From NCBI GenBank assembly GCA_013336525.1, contig JAAXTM010000007.1, positions 36,688 to 100,687 on the forward strand: a stretch of 64,000 nt of DNA, given 5' to 3'. The first letter of the stretch is position 1. Each line of letters begins with the position of its first letter. The position numbers and the translations under genes were made by a program. This DNA comes from Geobacteraceae bacterium. Lineage in GTDB: Bacteria; Desulfobacterota; Desulfuromonadia; Geobacterales; Pseudopelobacteraceae. Positions 24,607-47,586 of the stretch are shown here, in pieces. The notes below the pieces were generated by a model. It was not told the origin of the DNA and searched no databases. It saw only the letters and a program-made list of their open reading frames with translations.

Positions 24607-24737
24607 CTATTTTAATACTATTGTCAGTTCCCTGGCATGGAGGTATGCGTGATATATTGTAACAAACATGAAGTTCTTCCGAAACAATACGGACATTGCT
24701 CCGGTGTCAATCCCAGCACATACAAAGCATATCAATC

Positions 24738-27897: not shown

Positions 27898-28701
27898 TCA
27901 CCCCTGGGGCGGCCTTGTATGACAACGCTGACAATCAGTTTGCGGAAAAGCTACCTTCTCGTGACATACACCGCAATACTTACTGTCAAATATTTCAGTC
28001 ATGGAATATTTGGAAGTCCCCTTTTTAACACCGACAAAAATATCCGGGTGACAGAGTTCGCAACCGTTCCATACCGTATGCTTCTTATGAGAAAAAATGA
28101 TGTCCGGCATCCCTTCAACTTTAGCTTTAATCGCAAAATCCTGATTAACTTTCAGATTTACTTTTTTAGAGGAAACCTTTTCCAGATAATCAACCGGCTT
28201 GATCAAGCCTTTTTCCTCAGCCAGTTCCCAGTTAATCTTGTTTCCAAACCTTTCGCCCGGCATTTGCTCCGAAAACCGGTAGAACTCATCTTCCTTGGCG
28301 GCGCTTCTTTCTCGCGTATGACATTTCGCGCAGGTTTTATACTCTTCACGGCTGTATTCTTTGGCACATGATTCGAATATTTTTTTATTATTATGTACCA
28401 TCCTGCCGTTATGGCATGTACCGCAGAAATAACCTTTCATATTATCAGCAGAGCGGATCTTGGTAGATCCGGCGGTCATACCAAATCCGATATCAACATG
28501 GCAAAGCCTGCAGGTATAGTTTTGCCGATGTACCCAATGATCAAACATTACCGGCGGCATTCCCGCCTGCTGGGAATAATTATTAATGGTAACGCTGCCA
28601 AATTCATACGGAAGAGGTTTTTTCTTCTTCATCCCGCCCTGTGCCCATGCAATGCCGACAGCAACCAGTAAAATCGGTACAACAAAAAGTAGTTTTCTCA
28701 T
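27898..28701 (-). CDS. Hexaheme c-type cytochrome (c7-like repeats)
   Basis: A 267-residue exported cytochrome with signal peptide MRKLLFVVPILLVAVGIAWA and six CXXCH motifs: CRLCH, CGTCH, CAKCH, CELCH, CGVCH, CQRCH. Like its paralog at 26700-27527, it has two heme triads split by a heme-free middle segment. GAGGATACACA precedes the ATG. It follows the peptidyl-prolyl isomerase gene, with a hairpin in between. Likely a periplasmic electron carrier; its redox partner is not identified by sequence. Confidence 0.92.
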   Translation of the reverse strand: MRKLLFVVPILLVAVGIAWAQGGMKKKKPLPYEFGSVTINNYSQQAGMPPVMFDHWVHRQNYTCRLCHVDIGFGMTAGSTKIRSADNMKGYFCGTCHNGRMVHNNKKIFESCAKEYSREEYKTCAKCHTRERSAAKEDEFYRFSEQMPGERFGNKINWELAEEKGLIKPVDYLEKVSSKKVNLKVNQDFAIKAKVEGMPDIIFSHKKHTVWNGCELCHPDIFVGVKKGTSKYSMTEIFDSKYCGVCHEKVAFPQTDCQRCHTRPPQG

Positions 28702-28805: not shown

Positions 28806-29816
28806 CTACAACATCTCAATTTTAGCGTCCTGTCGGGCCTTACCGACAAAATCACCAATAGCAGCATTTATCTTTTGAGCCTTGATATATTCTTCAATCT
28901 TTTTATTGACTGCGGACAGAGGGGTCGTCTCCGCTTTTGTCCGATCCGTCAGCTTGATTATGTGGAAGCCGAATTGCGTTTCTACTACGCCGCTCAAGCC
29001 TCCAACTTCAAGAGCAAAAGCAGCCTGCTCAAATTGTGGGACCATTTTCCCCTTGGTAAAATAACCCAGGTCGCCCCCCTGCTTGCTACTGGGGCATGAC
29101 GAATTTTCCTTAGCCAGCGTCACAAAATTTGCACCATTAACCAACTCCTTGTGCAGTTTTTCAGCCCTTTCACGAGCTTTATTTTTATCATCGGCCCCGG
29201 CTTTACTGTCAACACTCACCAATATATGGCTTGCCCGCAACTGCTCGGGCTTAACAAAGTTGGTAGGATTCTGATCGTAAAACGTTTTGATCTCTCCTTC
29301 GCTGACCGTCACTTTGGAAGCAATGTTCGTATTAACAAAATTTGCAATAACCAGATCGCGACGGGTATAGTCACGTAACATTTTTTCATCCATGCCGATA
29401 TTCTGGAGTTCTTTGGCATAAGCATTCGCATCAGCGAACCCGCCTTTAATTTTTTCAAATCTATCAGCAGACTGTTTGTCGAGGTCCTTTACTTCAAGCT
29501 TCTGACCGGCCTGAAAAAGCAGCTCTGAGCTAATCAACTGATTAAGGGCCTGTTTTTCAAATTCTTTTTTAAGGTGTGGGGGGATCTCCGCGCCCGGTTG
29601 TTTTGCCATTAATATTTTTTCAGCACGTTTGAGTTCACCAAGAGTAATCTCTGTACCATTTACCCTGGCAACCGCTTTTTTCAGTTCAGGTGAAGTAAAT
29701 TCAGTGGATTGTGGTGGCGGCGTAACATTCGATGGACCAACCGAACATGCTGAAACTAACAGCGCAAGCATCGATACAGCAATCACAGGTTTCAGCAACA
29801 GATTTAAATGACTCAT
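28806..29816 (-). CDS. Peptidyl-prolyl cis-trans isomerase lipoprotein, parvulin/SurA type
   Basis: Exported lipoprotein: signal peptide ending in the lipobox LVSAC, then a Pro/Thr-rich linker. A SurA-like N-terminal helical region (about 45-180) is followed by a rotamase domain (about 190-300) with LRASHILVSVDSKAG, GDLGYFTKGKMVPQFEQAAF and TQFGFHIIKLTD. It should assist folding of exported proteins. In the same direction as the hexaheme cytochrome operon just downstream, it may help mature those cytochromes (inference). Confidence 0.9.
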   Translation of the reverse strand: MSHLNLLLKPVIAVSMLALLVSACSVGPSNVTPPPQSTEFTSPELKKAVARVNGTEITLGELKRAEKILMAKQPGAEIPPHLKKEFEKQALNQLISSELLFQAGQKLEVKDLDKQSADRFEKIKGGFADANAYAKELQNIGMDEKMLRDYTRRDLVIANFVNTNIASKVTVSEGEIKTFYDQNPTNFVKPEQLRASHILVSVDSKAGADDKNKARERAEKLHKELVNGANFVTLAKENSSCPSSKQGGDLGYFTKGKMVPQFEQAAFALEVGGLSGVVETQFGFHIIKLTDRTKAETTPLSAVNKKIEEYIKAQKINAAIGDFVGKARQDAKIEML

Positions 29817-30570: not shown

Positions 30571-33500
30571 TTAGTTAGCGCCGTTAACAGTTATTGTCTG
30601 CTTGAACAAGGCTAACTGTGCTCCAGTGCTGCTGTATACGTAGACCTGAACCAGCTTGCTGCCGGCGGTAGAATACGTATGTGCTCTTGTAGCAGTAACT
30701 AAACCGTTAATAGTCACGGTTTCGGACTTGCCGTCGCCCCAATAGATTTTCAAGGATTTATTAGGTGTTGGCAGAGTTGACATTGTAAGAACTCCGCTAA
30801 GTGATCCGGCAGCGTCAGCCCAGGCAATCGGGCCTGCAACAGGAGCTGCAACAGCAGTCACACTTGCTGTTGTAGTTGATACTTTGCCTTCTTCATCAGT
30901 AACCTGCAGGGCGATTGTCTTGGCCCCTTCGGTTGCGAAGCTCACGCTGGATGTTTTTCCGGCAGCAATGACAGTCCCATCGCTGGAGGTCCAAGCGTAA
31001 GTTGCTAAACCGACATTTCCAAGCTGTGCATCAGCAGCTGCAAGCGGCTGAGCAGCAGCTGTGTAGACCTGAACTCCAGGAGTCTGTGGATCTACATCGG
31101 TGAATACTGAAGTAATGCTGGCAGTCGGATCCACACCAATACCGGATCCAGCTGCTGTGATACCTGTGGTCAGATAGGTCTTGAATGCTGCCCGTGTACC
31201 GTGGTCAACACCCTTGACGTCTACAAAACTCACACCTGAAGCATCAGGGTACAGTGATTCCGCACGGTCAAGCTCGGTAACACGCTTGAAAGTACCAGCT
31301 GCGTTAGGAGTAAAAACGCCACCTGCCCATGTGCCAAGCTCTTCGAACTTGACTTCTACAGCTCCGCCAGCCTTGGTTGAAACTTCAGCAGCGGTATCAA
31401 TATCATGCTCTGCACCTACGACTTCCATCATCTCTGCAGGAGCCTGCATAAATGTAAGGCCTGCAGCTTTAGCAGCTTTTGCATTGATCGCGGTACCAAG
31501 CATATTGAAGGTGCCGTCAAACATTGGCACTTTTGCAGTAGCAGCAGGTGCATGGCAGTCGGTGCAGCTCTTGCCCAGAACAAACTTGTCGATCGGACGG
31601 ATGCCGTGGGTCAGTTTGTAAGGACCTGCTACGAAGCCAAGCTCGGTACCGGCCCATGATTTACCATCGACCGCACCTTTGATACCTTCACGCCATGCTT
31701 TGTATGCAGTAATTTCTTCAGGTGTGGAGAACATGGCGTTGCCGCCATAAACACCAACATACTTCCACTGGCCGGTAAATGCACCAGTTGCGTCAAATGC
31801 ACTGGCAAAACCAGTTGCACTCATATCGGCACCGAAACCAACAGGGATAGGAGCGAACCCGGAAGGGCCGAAGTTCATGCCGGCTTTCATGTCGCGGGAG
31901 ATCCATGGATCATAGTTGGTTGATGGGGAAACTTCCGGAGTACCGGCATGAATGCTTGGTGCACGTCCAGCTACGCCGTCGCCGTTGGCATCAACTGCGC
32001 CATCAACGTTGTTCCAGATTTGTGCTGTGATCAGGTTGACGGCATACATCTTACGACGCCACTCTGGATTTGCAACACCGTTTAACGTTTTGAAATCACT
32101 TCCGCCCTTCTGCCAGGTGTAGAGAGGAGTCCATGGCTCAAGGTTGTTGCCAACTGGAGCGCCCATTGACATTGGATCAGTGAACATACCCATCATGCCG
32201 CGTTCTTTTTTGAATCCGAGCATGTTGGGGTAGCGGTTACCTGAGGTGCAGTCGAGGAGACGAACAACCATCTGCTCACGTGTCAGGTGACAAACCGTAC
32301 AGTCGATAACATCAAGGTGGCTGCCGACAAAGTTCTCTTCGGCAGTACCGGCTGCATTCATGCGGACGGACTTGGTTATGTTTGCCAACAGACCGCTGTT
32401 CTGGTGAGCTACATCAGCACGAGGCGCACCGAATGTATCAATGACAACGCCGTCATTGTTCTTGCCGGTAACGTGGCAATTACTGCAATGTTTAACTGTG
32501 TTCTGGCTGTTGACGGTAGTTTTGAAGGCAGGGTTTGCTTCAACTCCACCAGCACTGTCATAACCACGGCCTGGATCGCAGGTACTCTTGCCATCAAATA
32601 TGATGTTGCCGTTAACGTCATACTGGTCAACTTTGGTGGTTTTTGTGTTCATATGGCAGCCGGAACAGTCCAGCGACAGGTGAACATCATAGCCCGTTGC
32701 CCACATATCTCCACGCTTGAACCATTCAGCACGTGGGAACGGCACGGTACTCTTCTTGAGGACGTTTTGGTCCTGATGCCCCATTGCGTCAAGAGTGGCC
32801 TGATAGTAGATCGGGCCAGAGCCAGCAGGGTTACCGCCACCCATGAAGTAGTTTTTCATGCCTGGCATTGCTGTAGAGAAGTTGTCGAATGCAACCTGGT
32901 TGAATTCGGTTCTGCCCATGGCGGATGGCCAACCGGCAGGAATTGTGGTTGTAAAGCCCGGTGTGGTGCTGCCGATACCGGTCTGGGTCATATACAGTGT
33001 CGGTGAAACTCCGTATGGACCTACTGTCATATCCCATGTCATACCAAACGGTGCGTTGAAGTCAAAGGCCGGCATGGTCAGACCGGTAAATGATTTCGTA
33101 AATTTGCCGTTGTAGATCATAGGTGCTGAGGAGAGGAAGTCTCTCATCATATCCGGGATATCTTTAAGATCCGACGGGGTGTGGCAGTTGCGGCAGTTCT
33201 GGCTTGGCGGATCATATTTCATCTTGGAGAGGCCAAGACTTGATATGGATACGACGTTGCTGCTGTCTTTCTCCAGAAGGCCGGTTGTAAAATCATATGC
33301 TTCGGTAAACATGTTCATGAAGCCTGCACCGAAAGATGCTGTGGCATTAAGTGCGCCACTGTAGGTCATAACTGAAGCCATCAGATTGCTATAACCGTCA
33401 AAATGGCACATGAGGCAGTCAAACTCTTTTACGTTCGGCATCATAACCTGTCCGGCAACAACAGGCATGGCGGAGCCGTCAGGTAAAGTCATGCTCATCG

Positions 33501-34332
33501 GCTGTCCCCAGCCACCAGGAGCGGTCAAAGGTGTTGTACCGTTCCAGATTGGATAAGACCATGGAGCAGGCTCAACCGTATGAGCAGGCATACCGGTCAT
33601 TGGATCATAACGATCGAAGATTGTCATGGTGTAAGGGGTAATACCATCAACAAATGGGCTCATCTGGCTCATACGTTTGCCGGTACGATCCTTCTCGACA
33701 AAACCGCCGCCCGGATGACAGGAACCGCAGGTGCTTGAAAGCTCCCAGGCTGAATAGTCCATCTTGGTAAGACGGGGTTGAGTTAATGGATCCGTACCAT
33801 TGTAGAAACTGGGGGAACCCATAAGCATAGTTGCAAGATTGCTGAGGGTTTGTGCAGTTGGTTTGCCGTCTGAGCCGAGAACATAAGCTCCATAACTAAT
33901 GTAGTTGCCGCTGCTGTCTTTCATGTAGTTCGCCACCTGGCGAAGCGAGGGGCTTCACCATTTGCCGACCATGGCCGTTGCTTGTGTCCATGGTTTGCTT
34001 TTGTTTGGATCGAACTTGCCGGTTGCAGTGTCAGGGAACTCATTACGTCCCTGAGCAGAGTGGAATGAATGATCGGAAATTTTGTCGTACGTACTGTTAG
34101 GACCGTGGCACGCTGCAGTACCGCAGGTTGCCTTCGGGCTGTACGGCATACCCTTGCCGGCTGCATCAACCTGAACAGGCACTGGAGCACCACCGGCCAT
34201 CTGCATGCCGATCTCCTCATACGTATAAAGCGTGACAGGTGGGTGAGCGGCAAAAGAAATGCCCGCTGACAGGACCAGGCTGGCAGCAGCTGTCGCTGTC
34301 AGGAAGCCTGGTATAACTCTTGGCTTTTTCAT
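30571..34332 (-). CDS. Octaheme c-type cytochrome with in-frame UGA (selenocysteine), PKD-like tail
   Basis: I read one 1,253-residue gene through a TGA at 33955-33957 (residue 126). Upstream are a strong ribosome binding site AAGGAGA, a signal peptide ending near SFAA, a non-standard heme motif CGTAACH (CX4CH, residues 70-76) and HSFHSAQGRNEF. Downstream the frame continues without a break and carries CGSCH, CLMCH, CRNCH, CSGCH, CSNCH, CTVCH and CTDCH, making eight heme sites. Two beta-rich PKD-like domains fill about the last 200 residues. Starting after the TGA would use a GTG with no ribosome binding site and no signal peptide. A SECIS-like hairpin follows the TGA. The paralog at 37137-40487 has the same arrangement. 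Substrate unknown; probably an extracellular or periplasmic redox protein. Confidence 0.85.
33929..33957 (-). other. UGA selenocysteine codon and bacterial SECIS-like hairpin, cytochrome 1
   Basis: Reading the minus strand: TGA (33957-33955), a 10-nt spacer, TTCGCC, loop AGGT, GGCGAA (33934-33929). The 6-bp stem is perfect, and the loop starts 17 nt after the UGA with G at its second position. This meets the published bacterial SECIS pattern as I recall it (small loop 16-37 nt downstream, a G among the first two loop bases). The E. coli fdhF loop also starts AGGU. Confidence 0.8.
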
Positions 34333-34752: not shown

Positions 34753-34940
34753 TATATGCAAAATTGAATACATAGTAACGGTTTCACCGGCATAAAATAA
34801 CTCTTGCATTTTCAGTAAAAATACATTCTAACTATTTGAGTTTCTACACGATTCTTCCCCAGCACACTAATACATACTCTATAAACTAGAACAATAATGC
34901 CATCGCATCCAGCACGTTGGATGACTTACAAGGAACCAAG

Positions 34941-36329
34941 ATGAGCTCTAATTTATTTGCCAGTATTGTCGACAGCCTTTCCAACGGTATCTATGTCCTA
35001 CAGGATAACCGCGCCGTCTATCTTAACCAGCGCTTCGGCGAGATCTTTGGCTATGAGTCCCTGGAACCGTTACTCATGTGCGATATGTATGAAACGGTTT
35101 ATCCGGACCGATTGACTGTCGATTTTTTTCGTGGAGTTCACGACCAGATGCTAGCCAACGGCCAGACAAAAGCTGCCTGGGGGCAGGCTTCAGCAAAGTG
35201 CGACGGCACACCCATCTGGTTGGATGTGGAAGCGCAGACAGTCATGTTGAATGGTCGACCGGCCATCATGGGGATGTTTCATGACTTTACCGAGTGCAAA
35301 CTTATCGGTGAGGCGATGTTCGTGTCCCAGGAAACGCTCCGTCTGCTGCTGGACGCTATGGAGGATCGGGTTTACGTGGTGACCGATGACCTGAAGATTG
35401 TTTACGCCAACCAGAAAATGATGGCAACCCTTTGCGGCGATATAAATACAGAGCTGTGCCACAAGGTCTGCCGGGGACTTGATTCAATATGCGTGGACTG
35501 CTCGGCCGAAGAGGTGTTCAATTCCAACAAGCCGATGTACAAAGAGTTTTATAATGAGATTACCCATAAATGGTACTCGGTCATTGAGCTTGCTATCCGT
35601 ATGCCGGGAATCAACCGACCGGCCAAACTGGCAGTGGCCCGGGACATTACCGATCGCAAGGAGTCTGAAGAGCGGATCCGTGCACTTTCACACCGTCTCC
35701 TCAATGTACATGAGGATGAAAGAAAACGCCTGTCACGCGAACTTCATGACGACCTCGGGCAGCGTCTGAACGCCGTCAAAATCGGAGTCGACACGCTGGC
35801 CGAAGACCTGGAAAATTTCCCTCCTGAAATTTATAACCACGTGAGCAACCTTTCCAAGGTACTGCAATCTTCCATTGAGTCGGTCAGAAGCATCTGCTCA
35901 GGTTTGCGCCCGGCTTCCCTTGAAATGACTGGTTTGGTGGAGGCAATAAAAAAAGACTGTGCCAATCTTACCGAACTCCATGGCCTCAAGATAGACTTGA
36001 AATCGACCGGGATGAAAAAGATAAACCTCGACAGTGATGCAGAAATCAATCTTTACCGTGTTTTTCAGGAATCTCTTAACAATATAGTAAAACATGCCAA
36101 AGCAAGCGAGGTCAGAATCAGCCTTATAGCATCACATCCCATTATCAGAATGAGGATTGAGGACAATGGCAAGGGTTTTGACATCCTGGAACGCAAGGCA
36201 AAAAATGATAACAGGCTCGGCCTGGTAGGCATTGCAGAGCGGGTAGATCTTATGGGGGGGACTTTCAAGATGGCCTCTCGACCTGGCGAGGGGACACGCA
36301 TTGTTGTTGAGATCCCATATTCCAGTTGA
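34941..36329 (+). CDS. Cytoplasmic PAS histidine kinase, NarL-type (HisKA_3)
   Basis: A 462-residue kinase without membrane segments. A first PAS domain (about 5-120) and a second (about 135-245) precede the HisKA_3 domain with the phosphorylated His in LSRELHDDLGQRLNAVK, then an HATPase domain with ENDNGKGF-like DNGKGFDI and GEGTRIVVEIP. The second PAS contains CHKVCRGLDSICVDC, a four-cysteine pattern (CX3CX6CX2C) that could hold an Fe-S cluster or sense redox state (inference). ATG 34941 follows AAGGA. The cognate regulator is 42 bp downstream. The pair sits between the two selenocytochromes. Confidence 0.88.
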   Translation: MSSNLFASIVDSLSNGIYVLQDNRAVYLNQRFGEIFGYESLEPLLMCDMYETVYPDRLTVDFFRGVHDQMLANGQTKAAWGQASAKCDGTPIWLDVEAQTVMLNGRPAIMGMFHDFTECKLIGEAMFVSQETLRLLLDAMEDRVYVVTDDLKIVYANQKMMATLCGDINTELCHKVCRGLDSICVDCSAEEVFNSNKPMYKEFYNEITHKWYSVIELAIRMPGINRPAKLAVARDITDRKESEERIRALSHRLLNVHEDERKRLSRELHDDLGQRLNAVKIGVDTLAEDLENFPPEIYNHVSNLSKVLQSSIESVRSICSGLRPASLEMTGLVEAIKKDCANLTELHGLKIDLKSTGMKKINLDSDAEINLYRVFQESLNNIVKHAKASEVRISLIASHPIIRMRIEDNGKGFDILERKAKNDNRLGLVGIAERVDLMGGTFKMASRPGEGTRIVVEIPYSS

Positions 36330-36371: not shown

Positions 36372-37043
36372 ATGAACAAAAAACAAGTACTAATAGTTGA
36401 CGATCACCCACTGTTTCGTGATGGGCTAAAAAGCCTGGTGGAAAGGAGCGCCAACTACCAGACCGTTGGCGAAGCGGGAAGCGGCGCTGAGGCGATGAAA
36501 CTTGTTCTGGAACTTAAGCCGGACTTGATCACCATGGATGTATCTCTGCCGGATATGAGCGGCATCGATGTGGTTCGGGATATTTTGAAGGTTGTTCCGT
36601 CGGCCCAGATTCTCATGCTCAGCATGTATCCGAAGCTGGATTATGTCTCCGAAGCATTCAAAGCCGGCGCACGGGGCTATGTAGTCAAGGAAGCCACAAG
36701 TGCACGCCTGATTCAGGCTTTAGACACCCTCTGCAGGGGTGAATTCTTTGTTGATGGCCAAGTTTCCCAGGACATCGTGGCAAAACTTATGGCAGGTTCG
36801 GCAAACGAAGCAGTAATCCAGGATGAACTTTACGGACTGCTTACCGCTCGCGAACAGCAGGTACTGAGAATGGTCGCCGAAGGAATGACCTCCCGGGAGA
36901 TTGCCACAAAAGTAAACCTTACCATCAAGACCGTTGAGAACCACAGAGCCAACCTGATGAAAAAACTGAACGTTCACAGCAAAATGGAACTTGTTAAATA
37001 TGCCGCCAAATTGGGGCTGATCGATCTTGACAACTGGCGTTAA
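36372..37043 (+). CDS. NarL/FixJ-family response regulator
   Basis: The receiver domain (1-120) has the acidic pair in IVDDHPLF, phosphoacceptor Asp in LITMDVSLPDMSG and the lysine in YVVKEATSA. The C-terminal LuxR-type HTH (about 150-215) reads LLTAREQQVLRMVAEG, then TSREIATKVNLTIKTVENHR. The gene follows the HisKA_3 kinase and completes a two-component system. Likely targets are the flanking selenocytochrome genes, but no NarL-type heptamers stand out. It is convergent with selenocytochrome 2 and shares its terminator region. Confidence 0.92.
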   Translation: MNKKQVLIVDDHPLFRDGLKSLVERSANYQTVGEAGSGAEAMKLVLELKPDLITMDVSLPDMSGIDVVRDILKVVPSAQILMLSMYPKLDYVSEAFKAGARGYVVKEATSARLIQALDTLCRGEFFVDGQVSQDIVAKLMAGSANEAVIQDELYGLLTAREQQVLRMVAEGMTSREIATKVNLTIKTVENHRANLMKKLNVHSKMELVKYAAKLGLIDLDNWR

Positions 37044-37136: not shown

Positions 37137-40100
37137 CTAGTTAGCGCCGTCAACAGCGATGGTCTGCGTGAACAAAGCTAATTGAACTCCAGTGCTGCTG
37201 TATACGTAAACCTTAACCAGCTTGCTGCCGGCGGTGGCATACGTATGTGCTCTTGTAACAGTGGCCAAACCGTCTGGATTCGCTACTGACTGAGTAGTCA
37301 CGGTTTCGGACTTGCCGTCACCCCAATAGATTTTTAAGGATTTATTAGGTGTTGGCAGAGTTGACAGTGTAGCAATTCCACCAAGTGATCCGGCAGCGTC
37401 AGCCCAGGCAATCGGGCCTGCAACAGGAGCAACAACTGCATACACACTTGTTGTTGCCTCAGACACTTTACCTTCTTCGTCAGTAACCCTCAGGGTGATT
37501 GTCTTGAGCCCTGCGGTTGTGAAGGTCACGCTGGATGTTTGTCCGGCAGCAATGGCAGTCCCATCGCTGGAGGTCCAGGCGTAAGTAGAGAAACCACCAG
37601 CCTGTGCAGCAGCTGCTGTAAGCGGCTGAGCAGCAGTTGTGTTGACCTGAACACCGGCAGTCCCTGGATCTACATCGGTGAATACAGAAGTGATGCTGGC
37701 AACCGGATCAACGTTGATACCGGCGCTAGCTTCGGTGATGCCGTTCAGATAAGCAACCCACTCTGGACGTCCGGCATAACTTCCGCCGAGAACACCCAGC
37801 TGTGGTGCATTAACGTATGCTTTACCGCCCAGACCAAATGGTCCGAAGTCGGTTGCAACAGCATCAATCTTGACTTCGAAACCGGCTTGTGGGTTGATAG
37901 AAATGTTGGTTGCACCGGCATCAGTGATGGTGAAACCAAAGTTGTTGGCGTTAGTAGCGAACACGCCCATGGAGGTAATGACCTGAGCAATCGTGGTGCA
38001 CTCAGCATTCATGGCCCAGGTGCGGTTCGTCACGGTACCGGTTGCAGTTTCCTTCACATTAAGTTTCAGGATGTGACCTTTAGTTGATGTACCGGTTTCT
38101 TGGTTGGAGTTTGTTATGCCTGCTGCAGTTCCGCCAACAATCGGTAACGTCGTAAAGGTAGTCAGAGCAGGTGCCTGATCCTTGAAGATCGGTTCATAAA
38201 TAACTTCACTGCGGTCGATGTTTCTGAGTGTGCCGCCAGCAGGATTGAACAGCGTGAAAGCGACAGAACGCTTGCCATGCTTGTCAACTACGTTTGGATG
38301 GCCTTCGGATCCGTCCATCTTGCCGTTAACTTTGGTGAATGTGGCAAGCTGGTTAGCTGCAAATGTCCAGTCCATTCTACCGGTAGGATTGGTAACGGCA
38401 TCCTTAACAACTGGATACGCACCCTGGTAGAATTTAGAAGTGGCGCTATGGCAGTCAGTACAGCCATTCTTGCCCCAGGCAACATCAGCCGGGGAGATGT
38501 TGTGAGTGCCCTTGAAAGGCACAGTCAACATGGAGATACGTGGTGCAAAGTTAGGAGTTCCTGCAACTGGTTTGAGCGGAACTGCAACGCCGGTAAGCGC
38601 TGCGATGTTAGCAGAAATCAGGTTTTGACGATCAGTGATCTCAGTTGGAGTGATAACGCCATCGGCTCCCAGTGCTTTCAACATGCCGTTATCAAGGTTG
38701 ATTTTGCTTACATGTGCTGGCAGAAGTGCATCCATACCACCTGCACGTAAATCCTGGTTGGCGTCATAGTTAAAATCGTTCATATCGCGCCAGAAGAATG
38801 ATGTCAGCAGGTTGGCGGAATACAGCTTGCCACCCAGCCAGTGAAGGGCCTGACCGTTTTCCATGTCTTTTGATACAGCTGGATCGTCATGCAGTGCTAC
38901 ACGACCCTGCAGGTCAGTACCGGTACCGTCAACAAAAGCGCCACCGGTGATGCCGGCCTTGTTCTTGGTGTGACAGGCGGTGCAGTCCATGATATCGAGG
39001 TGACTCTTGCTGGCAACACCGTTCTTTACACCGGCAGCCTGCAGCAGTTTTGCAGTGAGTCCGGCATTCTGGTGGGCTATATCAGCGCGCGGTGCGCCAT
39101 AGGTGTCCCACGTAGGTGTAGTGGCAGGTGAGTGGCAATCTTCACAGGTCTTGAAGGCGACTTTGTCAAGCGGATTCCACATGGCATCGAATGGCGAAGT
39201 GCCACCTTTAGCCGGGTCACACTGGCCAAGCAACTTATCAGCTGCAGCGGCACTTACGATACCGGTTGTGCCAACTACGGCACCGGTTTTGCGCTCATGA
39301 CAGGACATGCAGCCGAAACCGAAGTGAACATCATTTGCAGATTTCCACATTTCACCACGTTTTTTCCAGTCAACCTGATACTCTTCCATATGGCAGGAAG
39401 CACAGTTTGCGGATTTAGGTGTAGCAACGATCTTCTGAGCAACATTGACGTCGAGGGTCAGTGCACCGAGAACGGGTACTACTTTAGTAGCGTCATATGC
39501 TACGGCAGTACCGCTGGTTGGTGTACCGAGTCCGGCACCGGCAGCGCGTGAGGAATCGAAGTTACCGACACGAATAGCATCCCGACGTTTATCCCATTCG
39601 TAACCATCGAGATGGCACATGAGGCAGTCCATCTCCAGGGCGCCGGTCTGGGCATAATCATTGGTCTTGGCTGCATAGGTAGGACCTACGTAGGTTGGGC
39701 TGGCAGGGTTGAGATCACGAGCAACGCCATGGTGGTCAGTTGCTTCGAAACCGAGTCCGTCAAGGCCGAAGATATCAATAAAGGTGTTGAATGTGTTTAC
39801 TGAGGCGCCGAAATTAGCGTCGCGGTAATCCGTACGGTTGGCCGGATTGTACTGGAAAGGCTTGGTTGCATCTACTGCAGAGTTGTAATACTGGTTAAAG
39901 CCGCCGCCAACATGGCACTCGGCACAGTCACGCATAACACCAGCCATTGAGTTATCTACTTTTTTAGTAAAGCCTGCAGCAAAGTCAAACGGTGTAAAAC
40001 TTGTGAATGCGTTATCTGTTGATTTTGCTGTTGCTGGATCATACGTTGCACCCATTCCGTCTGTGTAAGTTCTCGCCAACTGGCGAGCAGAAGGTGGTCA

Positions 40101-40487
40101 CCAAGATCCAAAGTGGCCGGGGCTCTGTACCCAGCTTTTGCCGGGGGCAGCAGCGCCGGTCCTGAAGGCATCGCCTGAATCGGGGTTATAGGGGTTGAAG
40201 CCGCGGAACTCGTTGGAACCGGTCTGAGCGTGATAGTTGTGACGCTCGATTTCACTGTAGCTGCTCAGCAACTTGGTGGTACCGCCATTGTTTGTGCCGT
40301 TGTGGCAGGCGGAGCAGGTGGCTTGCATACTGAAGGCGTTATTTACTGTGGCAGGCGTAATTGGTGTACCGGCTCTGTCGCGCAGCACCATGCCAGTGTG
40401 CTGCGTAGCGGCAAAAGCCGTTCCGCACGCCAGTCCGACAGCCAGTGAGGCCAACAGGACAGACTTTTTCTGGATTCGTTTACTCAT
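37137..40487 (-). CDS. Octaheme c-type cytochrome with in-frame UGA (selenocysteine), PKD-like tail
   Basis: One 1,116-residue gene read through TGA at 40098-40100 (residue 130). Before it: ribosome binding site AAAAGGAGAA, a signal peptide ending near GTAFAA, heme motif CSACH (58-62) and ERHNYHAQTGSNEF. After it: CAECH, CLMCH, CASCH, CMSCH, CEDCH, CTACH and CTDCH, for eight hemes, then PKD-like domains nearly identical to those of the paralog. The Sec site reads HFGSW-U-PPSARQLA; the paralog reads MVGKW-U-SPSLRQVA. An open-frame caller would start at TTG 40079, without signal peptide or ribosome binding site. The partner, substrate and cell location (periplasm, surface or secreted) are not determined. 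Confidence 0.85.
40072..40100 (-). other. UGA selenocysteine codon and bacterial SECIS-like hairpin, cytochrome 2
   Basis: Minus strand: TGA (40100-40098), a 10-nt spacer, CTCGCC, loop AGTT, GGCGAG (40077-40072). The spacer, stem length and loop size equal those in cytochrome 1, while the stem sequence differs at one base pair (TTCGCC/GGCGAA against CTCGCC/GGCGAG), with pairing kept. The loop has G at its second position followed by U. Confidence 0.8.
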
Positions 40488-40851: not shown

Positions 40852-42486
40852 TCAATAATACTTCGTCCCGGAATGGCAGCTGACTGTGCAGCTTTTGCCG
40901 ACTGAGCTGTATGCCCCGCCGCTGGTAACAAAACGAATATCAAAATTTATCAGATGGGCATTGGCGGTAATGCTAGCACCACGGACCTGTGGCACTCCAT
41001 GAGGATCATGGCAGACCGAACAGGGTACTTTGTTATTTACAACGTGGCTCTGATGGGGAGGAAAGGCTGAGATCACCGGATCAAGCAGTATATTCTGGTC
41101 ATGACAGCGGAAACAAAGGGCATAATTGGCCTCACTGTAGTCAAGTGGATAAGTGTCGTCCTCGTACCGATCGATCAGAATATGTTTGTTATTTGAACCG
41201 TGGGGACCCTTGGCCTGCAGAGTGTCATCGTTATTATGGCAATCGGTGCAATAAATCATACTGCTTGTACTGAACTGCGTGCGCAGACTCGGTACGTTAG
41301 TCCCTTTGCCGATGGCAACAACCGGGTGAAACGAGGGATTTAACGGGTCGAAATCAAGACGTGTATCGAGCTCCTGGATCTGTCTGAGAACGGTCTGAGG
41401 AGCGTAGAAACTGTTTCCGGAATGACAGCGGAAACAAACCTCATACTCATTCGCAGCGTCGGTAGAAAGCACTACTCCGGCACTCGATACACCTTTTACA
41501 CCGGTAAGTGAACCGGGCACTACAGGAGCTGTGGCCAAGGTTGCCAAGGCTTTGTGAGGGTTGTGACAATCATTGCATTCGACATGCTTCTGGGCTGACA
41601 GCGGGTCCTCCTTAGGGTCATGGACCCCTGTGGTACCCTCCATGGGGTGGCTGTAAAATTTGCTGGCGGCGCTCTGTATATCTTTGGCCCCTCCTGATGA
41701 GGAATGGCACTGATAGCAGTTAGCCTCCTCAGCGGCAAACTTCAGCAGACGTGCACGTCCACCGGCATTGTGGCTGACATGGCAGTGAGTACATCCAGCA
41801 GCCACTGCGGGGTCTGTGGCATGAATCGATGCGTTCCATCCGTTTATGTTGTGACACGTCTTACAGAGAGCGGAAGCGGCGTTATCCATAACCAGAAATT
41901 TGCCATACGGATCGGTATGCGGGTTATGGCAGGCGGTACACTGGAGCATGCCCCCTTCCTCAAGTCTGACCTTCGCAGGAAGGGAACTTGGAAGGCTCAG
42001 CTGACCATTCAACATTGCAAGTTCTTCACTATAGGCGAATGATATTGGGTGGTCATTACTCAGATCTGTTTTCAGATTAGCGGAACTGCTGTCAGGCATG
42101 GTGGTAACACCACCCTCCATGGGTATGACATCTGAAGTCCCATAGAAGGCGCCCAGGGCAATAGTCCCGTCATGGCAGCTGAGACAGAGGCGCGCGGAAC
42201 CGCTTGGCTGTCCGGGCTTTGCCACTAATGTCGTGGACTCATACAGATCATAGACAGCAGTGCTCGTAGGGCGGCTCCAGAGCGGCGTAAGGGGGTTGGC
42301 ATGATGCGGGGTATGGCAGAAGATGCAGACACGCTCTTCATTGGTGGCCTTGATAGACCCCGGCCCGGACATGGACAGGTTATGTTTGCTGTTCAGGATA
42401 CCTGCAGCGAAAGCCCATCCGGAGGCAGCGACCAGCATGGTCAAAGATGCGATCAGTGTTGCAGCAGGCCTTGGAATGTTCAACAT
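40852..42486 (-). CDS. Dodecaheme c-type cytochrome
   Basis: A 544-residue exported cytochrome. The start is ATG 42486 with AGAAGGAG upstream; an upstream TTG at 42525 has none. The signal peptide ends near GWAFA, followed by GILNSKHNLS, a motif also seen (GIVGSKHDM) in the tetraheme protein of this operon. Eleven CXXCH motifs plus a final CTVSCH (CX3CH) give up to twelve hemes. CIFCHTPHHAN and CLSCHDGTIALGA are shared in style with the tetraheme protein. It is the last gene of the porin-cytochrome operon and is probably the surface-exposed, or secreted, electron acceptor of the conduit (inference). Some Geobacter dodecaheme outer-surface cytochromes have similar neighbours, from memory. Confidence 0.9.
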   Translation of the reverse strand: MLNIPRPAATLIASLTMLVAASGWAFAAGILNSKHNLSMSGPGSIKATNEERVCIFCHTPHHANPLTPLWSRPTSTAVYDLYESTTLVAKPGQPSGSARLCLSCHDGTIALGAFYGTSDVIPMEGGVTTMPDSSSANLKTDLSNDHPISFAYSEELAMLNGQLSLPSSLPAKVRLEEGGMLQCTACHNPHTDPYGKFLVMDNAASALCKTCHNINGWNASIHATDPAVAAGCTHCHVSHNAGGRARLLKFAAEEANCYQCHSSSGGAKDIQSAASKFYSHPMEGTTGVHDPKEDPLSAQKHVECNDCHNPHKALATLATAPVVPGSLTGVKGVSSAGVVLSTDAANEYEVCFRCHSGNSFYAPQTVLRQIQELDTRLDFDPLNPSFHPVVAIGKGTNVPSLRTQFSTSSMIYCTDCHNNDDTLQAKGPHGSNNKHILIDRYEDDTYPLDYSEANYALCFRCHDQNILLDPVISAFPPHQSHVVNNKVPCSVCHDPHGVPQVRGASITANAHLINFDIRFVTSGGAYSSVGKSCTVSCHSGTKYY

Positions 42487-42543
42487 CGCTGTTCTCCTTC
42501 TTACGTTTACTTGGCCTTTCAACAATCAGGAACTGTTTGCACG

Positions 42544-43611
42544 TTATTTTCCAGTCATTTCCGGAAGGTATTGGAAGATCTGGATCCTGTTGTTGTAAGT
42601 ATCGGCGACATAGATCATATCATCGCGGATGAAAATCCCTGACGGCATCCAGAGCTCGCCATTTCCGCTCCCCCTGTTGCCGTAACTGAGCAGGAACTGA
42701 CCATCTTCATCGAATATCTGTATGACATCGAAGAGTGCATCGCTGATATGCATGTGCCCTTCGCTGTCAATGGAGATCCCCTTTGGCTTGGCAAAGTTGC
42801 CTGACGAATCCCCATGTTTACCGAAGCTCTTCATATAGGCGCCCTTGCCGGAAAAGGTCTGAACACGAACATTAAGGGCATCGGTCACGAAGATCCGCCC
42901 CAGTCCGTCAACCGCCAAATCGGTTGGGTGATTGAACTGCCCGGCATTTTCGCCGGCAGTTCCAAAGCGAAAGGACTCTTCACCATCCGTGGTGAAGGCC
43001 ACCACCTGCCCCGCAAGGGTATCGCTGACATAGACAAGTTCGGTCATGGGGCTGTAGACGATGCCGGTTGGACGCTGTAAACCTGAGATGAATGGCATCA
43101 CTTTAAGGTCGTCAGGGCTGAAGCGATAAATTTTCCCTGCAGCAGAGTCGGTCACATAGACCCTTCCATCCGCATCCCCAGTCACTCCGACGGGAGATTT
43201 AAATCCACTTTCCCCACTCCCTCTCACCAGTTCATACCGACCTGAGGCGGGGTCGATAAAATGAACGACCTGCCCTCCGGTGTCGGCAATAATAATCCTT
43301 TTTTTCAGATCGACGTGAATACCGTAAGGACGTACGATCCGCACCTGAGTCTCACCAAAGACAGCGTCGGCAAATTTCCTCCAAAACCCTTTGCGGATAC
43401 CGGCATCAGCTGGGGTGACAATGGACTTTACCCAGGAGATACGGGCCTCCATAGGTGGCGGTGGCCAGACGATCTTATCAAGCGTGACCATCTGATGCGA
43501 TTCGGGGGTAACGGCACATCCGGCAGCCCCCAGCATTAAAATAGATGCCAACAGCCACGCTAACAGGACTAAAAGCGGCCGCCCCGGACAAGGAGACATT
43601 TCACGTTTCAT
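42544..43611 (-). CDS. NHL-repeat lipoprotein
   Basis: A 355-residue lipoprotein: signal peptide ending in lipobox LGAAGC, then an NHL-type beta-propeller (about 70-350). Repeats are visible as GRVYVTDSAAGKIYRFS, GRIFVTDALNVRVQTFS, GHMHISDALFDVIQIFD and DMIYVADTYNNRIQIFQ. NHL propellers serve as protein-binding scaffolds. The start overlaps the stop of the beta-barrel gene (TAATG), so the two are translationally coupled. A second NHL protein is three genes upstream. Both recur with outer-surface cytochromes in Geobacter-like genomes, so a role in assembling or anchoring the electron conduit is plausible. Confidence 0.9.
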   Translation of the reverse strand: MKREMSPCPGRPLLVLLAWLLASILMLGAAGCAVTPESHQMVTLDKIVWPPPPMEARISWVKSIVTPADAGIRKGFWRKFADAVFGETQVRIVRPYGIHVDLKKRIIIADTGGQVVHFIDPASGRYELVRGSGESGFKSPVGVTGDADGRVYVTDSAAGKIYRFSPDDLKVMPFISGLQRPTGIVYSPMTELVYVSDTLAGQVVAFTTDGEESFRFGTAGENAGQFNHPTDLAVDGLGRIFVTDALNVRVQTFSGKGAYMKSFGKHGDSSGNFAKPKGISIDSEGHMHISDALFDVIQIFDEDGQFLLSYGNRGSGNGELWMPSGIFIRDDMIYVADTYNNRIQIFQYLPEMTGK

Positions 43612-45656
43612 TAAAAAGACCTCCGGGCGTTAATGGTAAGTGACTGGTTACGAGAGGAGCCTGATGAGGAAAAACTCCAGTTTGAATTAGAATCCAGTGT
43701 GATATCTGTTCTGCCATATTTAGCAGCAAGGGCAAGCGCAAGGCTGAATTTATTACTGCTGTAGGAACTGGTCAGCAGGTTAACATAACCAAGCGTCAGT
43801 GTACCCTTGACAGTCTTGACAAACGAACGATTGTAAGCGGTAGAAAATTTGAAGACATTGTCCCAGCTCTGGGAGCCGGCTGAGCTACTGCTCGCATCTT
43901 TGTACCATGAATAACGATCCTCTGCCTTGGATAGAAGCGATGCGTTATTCACCTTCATGGAATGCGTCCAGGTGGTATCAACCCTCCGGATGTCCTGATA
44001 TACACTCTTTTCGGCGATATAATTAACAGATAAGGTATGGGGGGTGAGCTTACTCTTCAGACCGGCTTCAAAACGTGTGGTCCCGCCGATGGTTGAACTG
44101 GGGTCGACACCGGAAATGATTTGAATGTCACTCCAGCTGTAGCTGCTATGCAGGACATGCTTATCCCCTAAAAGGCTGAGACGCCCGCCAATCAAATGCC
44201 CGAAGGTGGAATATGCTATTTTAGGACTCAGTTTGTAGGAGTATTTCAGATAGAGGACCGGAACACCAGGATCCTCTGTAATATGAATTAGCGTTGTAGT
44301 ACCGGGGATAACCGTGTAATTGGTTAAGGTTTTTATCCACTCAGTGGTATATCCCGCGTCCAGATAGAATTTTATACTGTCAATATCGATATTAGGTTGC
44401 CCCAGAGTAATAATCTGGGGGGCTGAAAAAGGCGATTGAATAGTTACCTGCTCATCTACGTTCTGGTTTATCTCTGTTCGCGAACGGTCCTGAAACGAGT
44501 AAATGTACCCGTATGTAAGCCCGACCTGGCCGTCTTTTGGCAGCTTTTTTATATAGTTGGCGCCGGCATTCCAGGAGGTGTTGACATCAGTACCATCTTT
44601 GTAGTTCGCTTTTGTGTAAGAACCACCGGCATACGTCTGCAGACTCTTGAGATAACTATGAGTGAGCGCACCGTTGACATTCTGCCTGTTGCTGCTGTTA
44701 CTCACACTCTGGCTGTTGTTCATGTTATACCCGAGCCGGCTGTTTAGGGATTTACCGATCTGCCAGCCAAGCGCAGAGGCAAGATTTGACTGCAATCCCG
44801 GATAGCTGCCACTCTGTTCGCTATATACATATTTTGTGTCGAGCCGACGACTCAGTCCGCGAAAATTATCCCAGGACAGAGAATTCGATGCTTCAGCAGT
44901 TACTATTTTTCTGTTGTCTGTTATCCCGGTTCCAAGCAAGGTCTGCTCGGCTGTGGCCTGGCTCAGATTTATCGAGGTCGAGCTAAGATTGCCGCTATTG
45001 TGATATAAGGAAACCGATGCTGACGTGGAGCTCTGCCTGGTGTCATTATCGAGGCCGGAGGACGTTGACTCGTTATTCACATACGAAAAGGTCAGCGGCA
45101 AGTACCTGTTTTGTATGCCGGAGGAGACACTCTGACTCTCTGAGTCGACATTGTACGCACGGCTGAAGGGCGGCCGTATCGTCATTGTAGATGACTGAAC
45201 GTTGAAATTGACCGGATACGGTTTGCGATTAAGAATGACACCACTGACGCTGTAGGTGATATTGTTATGGCTGCTTGAGGAATTTCCCTGACTGGTGCTG
45301 CTGGCCAACTCCTGATTGGAAGTCAGGCTAAGTTTCACATCTCCACGAAGAAGACGGGGGTGCAGAATGGAATACCCTGCCATGAGGGAATACGATTCGT
45401 TGAAACCGTGGTTGCTCGAGCTGTACTTTCCTGTCTCGTAATCATTCAGGCTGTCCTGAAAGTTATAGCCGACGGCTACAAACTGGTTAAGGCCCTCCAG
45501 GTTTAGCAGGGTAAATTGGGCCGGGGCCGCCAGAGCAGGTGAACAGAGTAGAGTAAAGACAACAGTTGCCAGAAAACATATCAGTAAACAGTGTCCCTGC
45601 TTCATGATCGCTGCCGTGCATCGCATTGTAGTGTTGTTGCTCGTGACTGGTATCAT
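43611..45656 (-). CDS. Outer-membrane beta-barrel (porin of cytochrome conduit)
   Basis: A 681-residue outer-membrane protein. A signal peptide (LLICFLATVVFTLLCSPALA) precedes a long series of amphipathic beta strands rich in Ser, Asn, Thr and Tyr, ending in LTINARRSF with the C-terminal aromatic residue typical of barrels. I see no heme motif. The start is uncertain: ATG 45656 has GGAG at long spacing; ATG 45605 fits the signal peptide better. Flanked by a pentaheme lipoprotein and an NHL lipoprotein, it matches the porin in porin-cytochrome conduits (MtrB/OmbB-like in role, not proven homologous). Confidence 0.85.
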   Translation of the reverse strand: MIPVTSNNTTMRCTAAIMKQGHCLLICFLATVVFTLLCSPALAAPAQFTLLNLEGLNQFVAVGYNFQDSLNDYETGKYSSSNHGFNESYSLMAGYSILHPRLLRGDVKLSLTSNQELASSTSQGNSSSSHNNITYSVSGVILNRKPYPVNFNVQSSTMTIRPPFSRAYNVDSESQSVSSGIQNRYLPLTFSYVNNESTSSGLDNDTRQSSTSASVSLYHNSGNLSSTSINLSQATAEQTLLGTGITDNRKIVTAEASNSLSWDNFRGLSRRLDTKYVYSEQSGSYPGLQSNLASALGWQIGKSLNSRLGYNMNNSQSVSNSSNRQNVNGALTHSYLKSLQTYAGGSYTKANYKDGTDVNTSWNAGANYIKKLPKDGQVGLTYGYIYSFQDRSRTEINQNVDEQVTIQSPFSAPQIITLGQPNIDIDSIKFYLDAGYTTEWIKTLTNYTVIPGTTTLIHITEDPGVPVLYLKYSYKLSPKIAYSTFGHLIGGRLSLLGDKHVLHSSYSWSDIQIISGVDPSSTIGGTTRFEAGLKSKLTPHTLSVNYIAEKSVYQDIRRVDTTWTHSMKVNNASLLSKAEDRYSWYKDASSSSAGSQSWDNVFKFSTAYNRSFVKTVKGTLTLGYVNLLTSSYSSNKFSLALALAAKYGRTDITLDSNSNWSFSSSGSSRNQSLTINARRSF

Positions 45657-45695: not shown

Positions 45696-46307
45696 CTACT
45701 TTAGAAAAAAGTACGTATTCCCGGCATGAGGATCGTGGCAGCTTTCACAGGTTAAACCTTTCTCCACAAACTGATCATGCATGCGCGCCGCCTTGCGGCG
45801 CTCAACATGGCACTTGGTGCAGAGAGACTCTTTGCTGACATTGAGCAGCGCGGGGTAGATCGAGTCATGGGGGAGATGGCAGGCCACGCAGTCGCCGACC
45901 GCAGCGGGGCCATGCTGAAACGGTTTGTCAAGGATATCCTTGTGACAGACGAAGCAGAGCTCTTCCTTTGGCTTGATTAACAGAGCATCTTTCTGCCCTC
46001 CGTCTGCTCCCTTGCTCTCATTGTGGCAATCATTACAGCGCTTCTCTTCGTATGGAACATGTACTGATCCTTTGGCCTGCTCAGAAAGCGAAGAGTCCGG
46101 AGCTGTCTTGTTAAGACAGGCGATCTTGGCCCTCTCCTCATGTTCCCGGCAAAGTTCTTCAACGGGAGGGAGGGCCGGGTAGCCATCAAGGACGGAAGTC
46201 ACCACCTTATGCCTGGTCACAGGATCACAGCCTGAAGCGGTCAAGAGCAGACACCCCAAAAGAACGAGATAAAAATATGGGTTCATACGCAGATAAATTA
46301 TTTTCAC
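45696..46307 (-). CDS. Pentaheme c-type cytochrome lipoprotein
   Basis: A 203-residue lipoprotein cytochrome. The signal peptide ends in LLLTASGC. Five CXXCH motifs, CNDCH, CFVCH, CVACH, CTKCH and CESCH, lie in the second half (about 90-200), after a heme-free segment with two further cysteines. GTG start at 46307 with GGGGGG upstream; ATG 46286 is an alternative. It precedes the beta-barrel gene by 39 bp. Likely the periplasmic-side cytochrome that delivers electrons into the barrel (inference from conduit architecture). Confidence 0.9.
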   Translation of the reverse strand: MKIIYLRMNPYFYLVLLGCLLLTASGCDPVTRHKVVTSVLDGYPALPPVEELCREHEERAKIACLNKTAPDSSLSEQAKGSVHVPYEEKRCNDCHNESKGADGGQKDALLIKPKEELCFVCHKDILDKPFQHGPAAVGDCVACHLPHDSIYPALLNVSKESLCTKCHVERRKAARMHDQFVEKGLTCESCHDPHAGNTYFFLK

Positions 46308-46326: not shown

Positions 46327-47586
46327 CTACTTTACCGGCGACGCGCCAGGGCCGGGAGTTCCGCTATCCGGTGCCTGATCAATGCCTTTCTCCGCTTTTT
46401 CCTTTTCCTCCTGAGCCTTTAGCCGTTTCTCCCTGGCCTCTTCTGCCCTTTTAGCCTGCTCTGCGAGGGTTTTCTTAACATCAGCTTCATAGTCGACCCC
46501 CTGCATTTTGCCGACCCCATAGATGCTGATCATGTGGTCTCCAACCTGACTTACCACGAAGAGCACCTTCTCCAGAATAAAACCGGGCGCGGCCAGTTTC
46601 TGGTAATAGTCAAGGTTATCAGTGGAAACGGCAATGCCGGCCGGGATATTAAGGGAACCAGGTGTACCAGGGGCACCGAAGAACATCATGATCCGAAAAT
46701 TTTCATCAAAAATCTGTACATGCTGCGCGGCGGCATCCACTACATAGACGAAACCTTCATTGTCCACGGCAATCCCACGGGGGCGACCGAACTGGCCGAC
46801 GGTAGTCCCCAGCTTGCCGTACCCCATCAGGAAGTTGCCGTCCCGGTCAAACTTGACGATTCGTCCATTGCCGAAATTGGAGGCGAACAGCGCCCCCTTA
46901 CCGTCAGTGGCCATATTGGTGGGTCCCAGGAGACGCCTGAGAGGATCGTCACCACTGCCGAAGGATTTCAGGAATTCACCCGTATTGATATCGAAGACAA
47001 GAATCTGGCTGCTGCTGCTGTCAAGAATATAAACGTACATTTCATCAACGCGTACATCGACAGGCTTCATGTCCTTGCCGGTACCAAAACTGCGGAGATA
47101 ACTGCCGTCTGGGGCATATTTTAGCACCTCGAGCCGCGAGGTATCGGTGACATAAATATTACCTTTTCCGTCGCTGGCAACATTTATCGGTTTTTTCAGC
47201 CGACCGGCATTGATATTGCCCGGGAGGCGGGTCATTTTTTTGCCGGGGAGATCAATAATCAGAACATCTGCCTGAACGGTATCGCAGACGTAGATTTTGC
47301 CGTTACCAACGGCGATTCCATACGGCTTGACAATAGGGACGAAATCGTCGCCACTGCTGCCGCCAACACTGACAAGCGAAAGTGACTTACTCCCTGAAAC
47401 ATCATTGGAGTCCTTGATGGACTTCAGAAACTGGATGCGAGGCAAATCCGGGGTTGGGGGCCAGAAAACCTGCTTAACTTTGGATTGCCCGGCACAAGCT
47501 GTCAATCCGAGTGACAGCAGCAGTATCGCAATGTACCTCATGCCTTTCCCCAAAACAGCTTGACGAACCAAACATCTGTTTCCCAT
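46327..47586 (-). CDS. NHL-repeat lipoprotein with coiled-coil tail
   Basis: A 419-residue lipoprotein (lipobox LGLTAC) with an NHL beta-propeller (about 85-350): GKIYVCDTVQADVLIID, GNIYVTDTSRLEVLKYA, GALFASNFGNGRIVKFD and GFVYVVDAAAQHVQIFD. The C-terminal about 50 residues are a charged helix rich in Lys/Glu/Ala, likely a coiled coil. GAGGAGG precedes ATG 47586; a second ATG at 47541 also has GGGGAAAGG and would give a more standard signal peptide. It begins the part of the operon after the internal terminator. Related in plan to the NHL protein at 42544-43611. Confidence 0.9.
   Translation of the reverse strand: MGNRCLVRQAVLGKGMRYIAILLLSLGLTACAGQSKVKQVFWPPTPDLPRIQFLKSIKDSNDVSGSKSLSLVSVGGSSGDDFVPIVKPYGIAVGNGKIYVCDTVQADVLIIDLPGKKMTRLPGNINAGRLKKPINVASDGKGNIYVTDTSRLEVLKYAPDGSYLRSFGTGKDMKPVDVRVDEMYVYILDSSSSQILVFDINTGEFLKSFGSGDDPLRRLLGPTNMATDGKGALFASNFGNGRIVKFDRDGNFLMGYGKLGTTVGQFGRPRGIAVDNEGFVYVVDAAAQHVQIFDENFRIMMFFGAPGTPGSLNIPAGIAVSTDNLDYYQKLAAPGFILEKVLFVVSQVGDHMISIYGVGKMQGVDYEADVKKTLAEQAKRAEEAREKRLKAQEEKEKAEKGIDQAPDSGTPGPGASPVK

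Follow-up and report, generated by a model that had tools for sequence, protein, structure and literature searches.

Is the in-frame UGA codon in the gene of an octaheme cytochrome c read as selenocysteine (Sec), and if so, what might such a residue do in a protein of this kind? The question is raised by a 64,000-nucleotide stretch of DNA from a Geobacteraceae bacterium (assembly GCA_013336525.1, contig JAAXTM010000007.1, positions 36,688 to 100,687), referred to here as the window, in whose numbering coordinates are given unless another locus is named. On its minus strand lies a gene for an octaheme cytochrome c, designated type A (37137..40487), whose reading frame is interrupted by a single UGA, and a second octaheme cytochrome gene with an in-frame UGA, designated type B (30571..34332), lies on the same strand. 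Few proteins contain selenocysteine, and its presence points to chemistry for which cysteine is poorly suited. It is likely, in our judgement, that the UGA of type A is translated as selenocysteine, probably by means of the hairpin that follows it, and that the protein is a relative of octaheme tetrathionate reductase (OTR), predicted to work as a reductase on the outer surface with this residue in its catalytic pocket. At the level of sequence, the open frame, the UGA, a covarying hairpin, the exchange of Sec, Cys and Ser among homologues and a full set of selenocysteine genes are all evident. A computed model together with profile comparisons demonstrates a predicted OTR fold, homology over hemes 4-8 and conservation, in most copies, of the lysine predicted to ligate a heme.

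The In-Frame UGA in Two Octaheme Cytochrome Genes

Read through its UGA, the type A gene encodes 1,116 residues followed by TAG, in which Pfam recognizes cytochrome and PKD domains (PKD domain at the C-terminus, residues 947-1014; 37446..37649, minus strand). The UGA, which specifies the predicted selenocysteine 130, is at 40098..40100 (minus strand) and is the sole internal TGA. An earlier note on this DNA placed it in an otherwise open frame past a signal peptide and the first heme motif, and re-reading of the frame bears this out, the signal peptide being recognized by inspection. The protein has eight CXXCH motifs, of which only the first, CSACH (residues 58-62; 40302..40316, minus strand), is ahead of the UGA; motifs 2-8 (residues 188, 288, 362, 393, 448, 502 and 676; 38448..39926, minus strand) are all past it. 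Ten nucleotides separate the UGA from a hairpin resembling a selenocysteine insertion sequence (SECIS) at 40072..40087 (minus strand), which has a 6-bp stem (CTCGCC/GGCGAG), the loop AGTT and, as described below, covariation among homologues.

The type B gene encodes 1,253 residues on UGA read-through. From its sequence, its UGA (33955..33957, minus strand) is predicted to specify selenocysteine 126, and its SECIS-type hairpin (33929..33944, minus strand) has the stem TTCGCC/GGCGAA, the loop AGGT and again a 10-nt spacer. The first heme motif of type B is CGTAACH (CX4CH) rather than CXXCH. The earlier note held that the two genes share spacer, stem length and loop length, and the geometry is indeed equal, although the loop sequences differ (AGTT versus AGGT). 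Its compensatory change of the outer stem pair, T-A in type B and C-G in type A, is found in both sequences, and the protein text that it quoted across the UGA (GKW-U-SPSLRQVA versus GSW-U-PPSARQLA) is correct.

All six reading frames of the window were scanned for stop triplets preceded by more than 60 and followed by more than 300 open codons. Just two TGA triplets qualify, those of types A and B, along with one TAG and no TAA. No Rfam family was detected at gathering score and no tRNA was found in the window, and viral contigs yielded no relative.

Homologues and the Residue at the UGA Site

With the read-through type A protein as the query, matches were obtained in 34 of 147 relatives, and the hits extending over residue 130 each contained one TGA, except for four hits to a third paralogue which contained none. 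A profile of the site region matched 45 of the 277 class genomes and 83 of 395 genomes sampled over the phylum, some of the matches missing the site itself. A scan of named genomes yielded 33 loci, with carriers that include Geomonas paludis, G. oryzae, G. propionica, Geotalea toluenoxydans and Malonomonas rubra as well as metagenome-assembled genomes (MAGs) of Desulfuromonas, Desulfuromusa, Desulfocapsa and Desulfobulbaceae.

Altogether 141 sites (118 with UGA) were collected, and removal of seven repeats that were identical over 105 nt around the site left 134 distinct ones. The residue at the site is UGA-encoded in 111 of these, Cys in 10 (five TGT and five TGC codons in the DNA of the fetched loci), Ser in seven, Leu in two, and Asp, Met, Phe or Gln in one each. 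Since the loci were found with profiles built from UGA copies, these counts are not a census. Copies with UGA span several paralogue types, namely A, B and others in Geomonas and more distant groups. The third paralogue type (C) has Ser at the site in Geobacterales and Cys in other lineages; the type C copy in the genome from which the window is derived (L073:8515, plus strand) has Ser and no hairpin there. Four type D copies from the genus Geomonas (L152-L155) have a differing protein stretch behind the UGA, PPSSDSSQLARK.

An alignment (A4) of the 127 of the 141 sites that have at least 480 downstream residues, together with the public protein P0014, contains 128 rows, 124 of them distinct (four repeats). 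P0014, which has Cys at the site, is outside the 134 and is not counted as a DNA-proven Cys since U may be written as C in such records. The residue ahead of the site is a conserved aromatic one, Trp in 120 of the 128 rows, and one His lying between heme 1 and the site is present in every row (128/128). Residue 125 in type A numbering, five before the selenocysteine, is His in 60 rows and Met in 48 and may be a heme ligand, as His and Met usually are; the selenocysteine itself could also conceivably bind a heme directly. In a FastTree tree of the 128 copies, including P0014, parsimony with midpoint rooting assigned U to the root and required 10 changes, one of which is P0014.

It is conceivable that the UGA and its hairpin form a switch that responds to selenium and holds back the long protein under selenium shortage, so that the residue itself matters little. 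The early position of the UGA (residue 130 of 1,116) and the existence of Ser copies would fit such a switch. UGA copies, however, occur across the phylum sample, and Cys or Ser accounts for 17 of the 23 non-UGA sites, as expected of a chemical role and against a switch, which we therefore consider quite improbable.

The earlier note had advised a look for Sec-to-Cys exchanges in species lacking selB. Exchanges at the site do occur, but six of the 10 Cys copies (L120, L197, L202, L203, L205 and L209) are in genomes that also hold a UGA copy; for L199 and L200, which share one genome, another hit with one TGA is listed, and for L204 and L206 none is listed. The MAG of L120 gave no SelB match, yet the same 1.7-Mb MAG holds the UGA copy L129 and is thus no test of Cys exchange through loss of selB.

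The SECIS-Type Hairpin and the Selenocysteine Machinery

All six stem pairs are formed in 70 of 86 regular UGA sites, and the loops of these 86 are AGTT (51), AGGT (32), AGTC (2) and AGAT (1). Bacterial SECIS elements as a rule have a G early in the hairpin loop. The covariance analysis of homologues suggested by the earlier note was run on an alignment (A3) from which four type D and three "RQFA" UGA sequences were left out because their hairpin geometry differs. On 64 distinct sequences, 96.6% of the cells were paired versus 85.9% in shuffles, with none of 500 shuffles as high; cells changed on both sides numbered 48 versus 14.2 in shuffles, and the covariation score was 0.323 versus 0.115. 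Pairing fell to 29-70% when the partner was shifted by one to three columns. Double changes include C-G to A-U in Geomonas diazotrophica and a Desulfuromonas MAG. In two MAGs the type B gene shows C-G to G-C, accompanied by replacement of Ala with Pro. Both the frame and the stem pairing across the UGA, the loss of which in homologues would have told against the earlier note, are kept.

The sequences left out of A3 can also form hairpins. The RQFA copies (L134, L136 and L137) have two to three inner pairs, a 3-nt loop, one unpaired base and five to six outer pairs, and the outer pairs vary between copies yet still pair. The type D copies have a 6-7-bp stem and the loop AGTT, with a spacer that is 5-6 nt longer.

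By a looser measure, a stem of at least five pairs is possible in 111 of 111 UGA sites and of at least six in 101 of 111, versus 203 and 113, respectively, of 400 control windows elsewhere in the same genes. Among non-UGA copies, one of seven Ser copies and the Asp copy also reach at least five pairs. Hairpin stability was further compared with that of synonymous shuffles, in which the protein is kept and the codons are shuffled. UGA sites were more stable than their shuffles (mean z of -1.76 over 76 distinct sites), the corresponding values being -0.26 for 328 control windows, +0.42 for five Ser paralogues, -0.16 for the Cys copy L120 and -1.46 for the Asp copy.

The genome from which the window is derived has selA, selB, selD and a tRNA-Sec (71.9 bits). 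The selB gene for the selenocysteine-specific elongation factor is in the window itself (24696..26651, plus strand), 3.9 kb from the type B gene, and selB is in the same stretch in seven further loci of the 52 that were fetched and compared. The presence of selB is by itself uninformative, since 236 of the 277 class genomes have it above the cut-off. In the genomes of loci L069 and L071 (G117 and G126) selB occurs twice above the cut-off, with one copy inside the cytochrome cluster. Elsewhere in the genome of the window, at L074:7994-9577 (minus strand), a gene for the radical SAM maturase SbtM (TIGR04082, 696.7 bits) is beside selA; its family description refers to thio(seleno)oxazole modification.

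Selection and Public Gene Models

The ratio of nonsynonymous to synonymous substitution rates (dN/dS) for types A and B versus four orthologues each is mostly 0.05-0.34 on both sides of the UGA, with several dS values saturated or not computable; short type B segments reach 0.38-0.57. Selection before and after the UGA is purifying in this codon-based test, one of those put forward in the earlier note, which mostly had a favourable outcome. Selection on the hairpin, proposed there as well, agrees with the finding that the 12 codons of the hairpin show fewer synonymous differences than the 88 codons after them in all eight ortholog comparisons.

Sequencing errors or decay of the gene could in principle place a stop codon in such a frame, and one record offers a case of this kind: both cytochrome copies of Geotalea toluenoxydans (L064 and L121) are broken past the UGA, through decay or assembly errors. 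As an account of the UGA itself this explanation has a practically negligible probability and is already refuted by homologues sharing the UGA, which is present at 111 of the 134 distinct sites in many genera and assemblies, as the earlier note had expected when it argued that two sequencing errors would not give the pattern. In addition, dN/dS is below 1 on both sides wherever it could be computed.

A tight downstream motif retrieved 95 copies with TGA at the site and none with TAA or TAG, and a looser motif retrieved 117 TGA codons and one TAG, the latter in stop-rich non-coding sequence. A search of public proteins with type A as the query gave 88 matches, of which only three span the site as judged by the motif. 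Cys stands there in P0014, where the letter may also represent U, and Ser in P0088 and P0089. The selenocysteine site is thereby lost from public gene models. These models imply that the UGA is a stop codon which separates a 129-residue monoheme protein from a heptaheme protein with its own start. Indeed, 37 of the 88 public proteins begin with the [LMV]-[ASP]-x pattern of a hairpin codon, a Leu or Val codon pattern in which a few matches may be due to chance. We nevertheless hold the two-protein arrangement to be very improbable. No Shine-Dalgarno-like match to any of six short patterns is present between the UGA and the supposed start in any of 90 sites, the downstream part would have no signal peptide, the frame of the Cys and Ser homologues continues across the site without a break, and the codons from the UGA to the supposed start are conserved. 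From the starts at the hairpin codon and the lack of a Shine-Dalgarno-like match, many public gene models appear to have been cut by the UGA.

Relationship to Octaheme Tetrathionate Reductase

The reference protein for OTR is SO4144 of Shewanella oneidensis (PDB 1SP3; NCBIfam TIGR04315). An AlphaFold model of the type A heme domain, computed with 128 sequences, was good and had the fold of 1SP3, which was the only clear match of the model among solved structures, as listed by VIA-align for a single chain, a listing that does not exclude other folds. A full-length AlphaFold model of type A computed with 20 sequences had a predicted local distance difference test (pLDDT) value of 58.1, and about 40 at the site, and was not used. 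Profile comparison indicates homology over hemes 4-8. Asp373 and Lys376 of type A (39360..39371, minus strand) align with Asp149 and Lys152 of a tetrathionate reductase homologue (Asp150 and Lys153 in 1SP3 numbering), and the lysine is described in PMC11024163 as the ligand of catalytic heme 2 in OTR. Lys376, whose role as a ligand is a prediction, is aligned and present in 114 of the 128 rows.

In 12 of 12 reductase homologues, a non-heme Cys between hemes 1 and 2 is invariant (in NNFC); this residue, Cys64 of 1SP3, is one which we take to line the OTR active site. In the family of types A and B, what is conserved between hemes 1 and 2 is the selenocysteine. From the order of features and the shared fold, Sec would occupy the position of this cysteine. 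Forced global hhalign runs did not place the site, with hemes 1-3 misaligned. The genome of the window also encodes a TIGR04315 protein above the cut-off, which has no internal stops.

Gene Neighbourhood

Upstream of type A, all on the minus strand, are genes for a multiheme cytochrome with paired CXXCH motifs (40852..42525), an NHL-repeat protein (42544..43611), a 681-residue protein with a signal peptide and a C-terminal Phe that is beta-barrel porin-like by inspection (43611..45656), a multiheme cytochrome adjoining the porin-like gene (45696..46307), and a second NHL-repeat protein (46327..47586). Multiheme cytochromes are thus encoded on both sides of the barrel-like gene, for whose product Pfam and NCBIfam gave no match. 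In the 52 loci compared, the cytochrome of 40852-42525 recurs around type A or B in 27, the NHL-repeat protein of 42544-43611 in 26 and the barrel-like protein in 12. The upstream cytochromes, NHL-repeat proteins and barrel-like protein, many of which recur around types A and B elsewhere, suggest that a porin-cytochrome conduit through the outer membrane is encoded here.

A sensor histidine kinase (PAS and HisKA_3 domains; 34917..36329, plus strand) and a LuxR/NarL-type response regulator (36372..37043, plus strand) are encoded between the two octaheme cytochromes. Downstream of type B are genes for a SurA-like PPIC-type prolyl isomerase (28806..29816, minus strand) and two c7-type cytochromes (27898..28701 and 26700..27527, both minus strand).

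Possible Role of the Selenocysteine

If the residue is catalytic, selenocysteine 130 would replace the cysteine found between hemes 1 and 2 of tetrathionate reductase, and its selenol, beside the lysine-ligated catalytic heme, could serve as a nucleophile or as an electron or proton relay in a reductive reaction. Judging from the neighbouring genes, electrons might arrive via the porin-cytochrome conduit encoded just upstream. The substrate may be an inorganic sulfur, selenium or nitrogen oxyanion, which is a guess.

Alternatively, the UGA could be decoded as selenocysteine in a protein that is only an electron carrier, where the residue has a structural, plain electron-relay or metal-binding role and is not near any catalytic heme. 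Many extracellular multiheme cytochromes are pure conduits, and the site is occupied in some copies of the family by Ser, Asp, Leu, Met, Phe or Gln. The equivalence of the N-terminal part to the reductase is likewise not significant by profile, and the OTR relative MmcA is reported in PMC11024163 to conduct electrons without the lysine-ligated heme. On the other hand, Lys376, present in most rows, is gone in all four rows whose residue at the site is Leu, Phe or Gln, and the W-U-x-P...R-Q pattern is preserved across paralogues that are only about 23-32% identical. We regard an electron carrier of this sort as rather unlikely.

Several observations nonetheless weigh against a catalytic selenocysteine as proposed for type A. 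The seven Ser copies and the Asp copy retain the lysine, which therefore does not need selenium, the rows without Lys are confined to two small clades, and 10 of the 128 rows, all from one subfamily, are unaligned at the lysine and have none assigned there. The Foldseek template modelling score (TM-score) versus 1sp3 is low (0.24 by query and 0.38 by target), and type A scores 31.4 bits and type B nothing with TIGR04315, for which the cut-off is 375. Since the comparison of the N-terminal part (hemes 1-2) with the tetrathionate reductase profile is not significant (hhalign Prob 8.6%), the equivalence of Sec130 and the OTR cysteine is drawn from feature order only. As for the hairpin, the numbers of pairs with double changes and of further pair types do not exceed those in shuffles (94 and 357 of 500 as high, respectively), only 38 of the 76 UGA sites singly reach the 5% level in the synonymous shuffle, six of 10 Cys copies reach at least five stem pairs, which is about the background rate, and the Asp copy retains the hairpin. 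The conduit and the surface location, finally, are deduced from the neighbourhood and inspection only.

A broader proposal, which is tentative and which we would put at somewhat less than an even chance, is that types A and B belong to a large and for the most part unannotated family of octaheme reductases that depend on selenium and act on the outside of Desulfobacterota cells, in which Sec replaces the OTR active-site Cys beside a lysine-ligated heme and selB is part of the cluster in some lineages. The predicted selenocysteine recurs in exported octaheme cytochromes, a family often present in several copies, from groups known for extracellular respiration. Were the active-site reading true, the family would offer a catalytic site of selenium and heme that can be tested. 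It would also account for the function of these cytochromes going unnoticed when the medium contains no selenium or the host does not have the matching machinery.

Comparison with Known Systems

The literature consulted contains no other mention of a type A/B selenocysteine family, though a description in Haft 2023 or 2025 is possible. A selenocysteine-containing cytochrome c of Geobacter, ExtKL (GSU2937-2936), was predicted in 2007 (PMC1914089) and is discussed further in PMC5877670. ExtKL (NF040886) resembles type A in being a multiheme cytochrome of Geobacterales with an in-frame UGA. It differs in that its five hemes are all N-terminal in a model of 423 positions, whereas in type A a single heme precedes the UGA and seven follow it. 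NF040886 gave no match to type A or B at E 0.001, and its best score in the genome of the window was 24 bits, below the cut-off of 250.

A 2026 review (PMC13188914) refers to ExtKL, to a GSU2204-type barrel protein and to one GenBank octaheme cytochrome of TIGR04315, WP_331457571.1, which is named there as a "tetrathionate reductase family octaheme c-type cytochrome" selenoprotein, with no motif described. Going by its name, this protein too would be an octaheme cytochrome that contains Sec and belongs to the wider family of types A and B. It is under TIGR04315, whose cut-off types A and B do not reach, and it may or may not share their Sec site. MmcA of Methanosarcina, the OTR relative that functions in extracellular electron transfer (PMC11024163), differs from type A in being without heme 2 and the Lys ligand, and the excerpted text does not mention Sec.

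OTR itself is the solved structure to which the heme domain of type A bears the clearest likeness. Both proteins have eight c-type hemes, and they share homology over hemes 4-8 and an aligned, mostly conserved pair formed by the lysine predicted to ligate a heme and the nearby Asp. Types A and B differ from OTR by the UGA, by long inserted segments and by a PKD domain at the C-terminus, and they have 1,116 and 1,253 residues, compared with about 440 in OTR.
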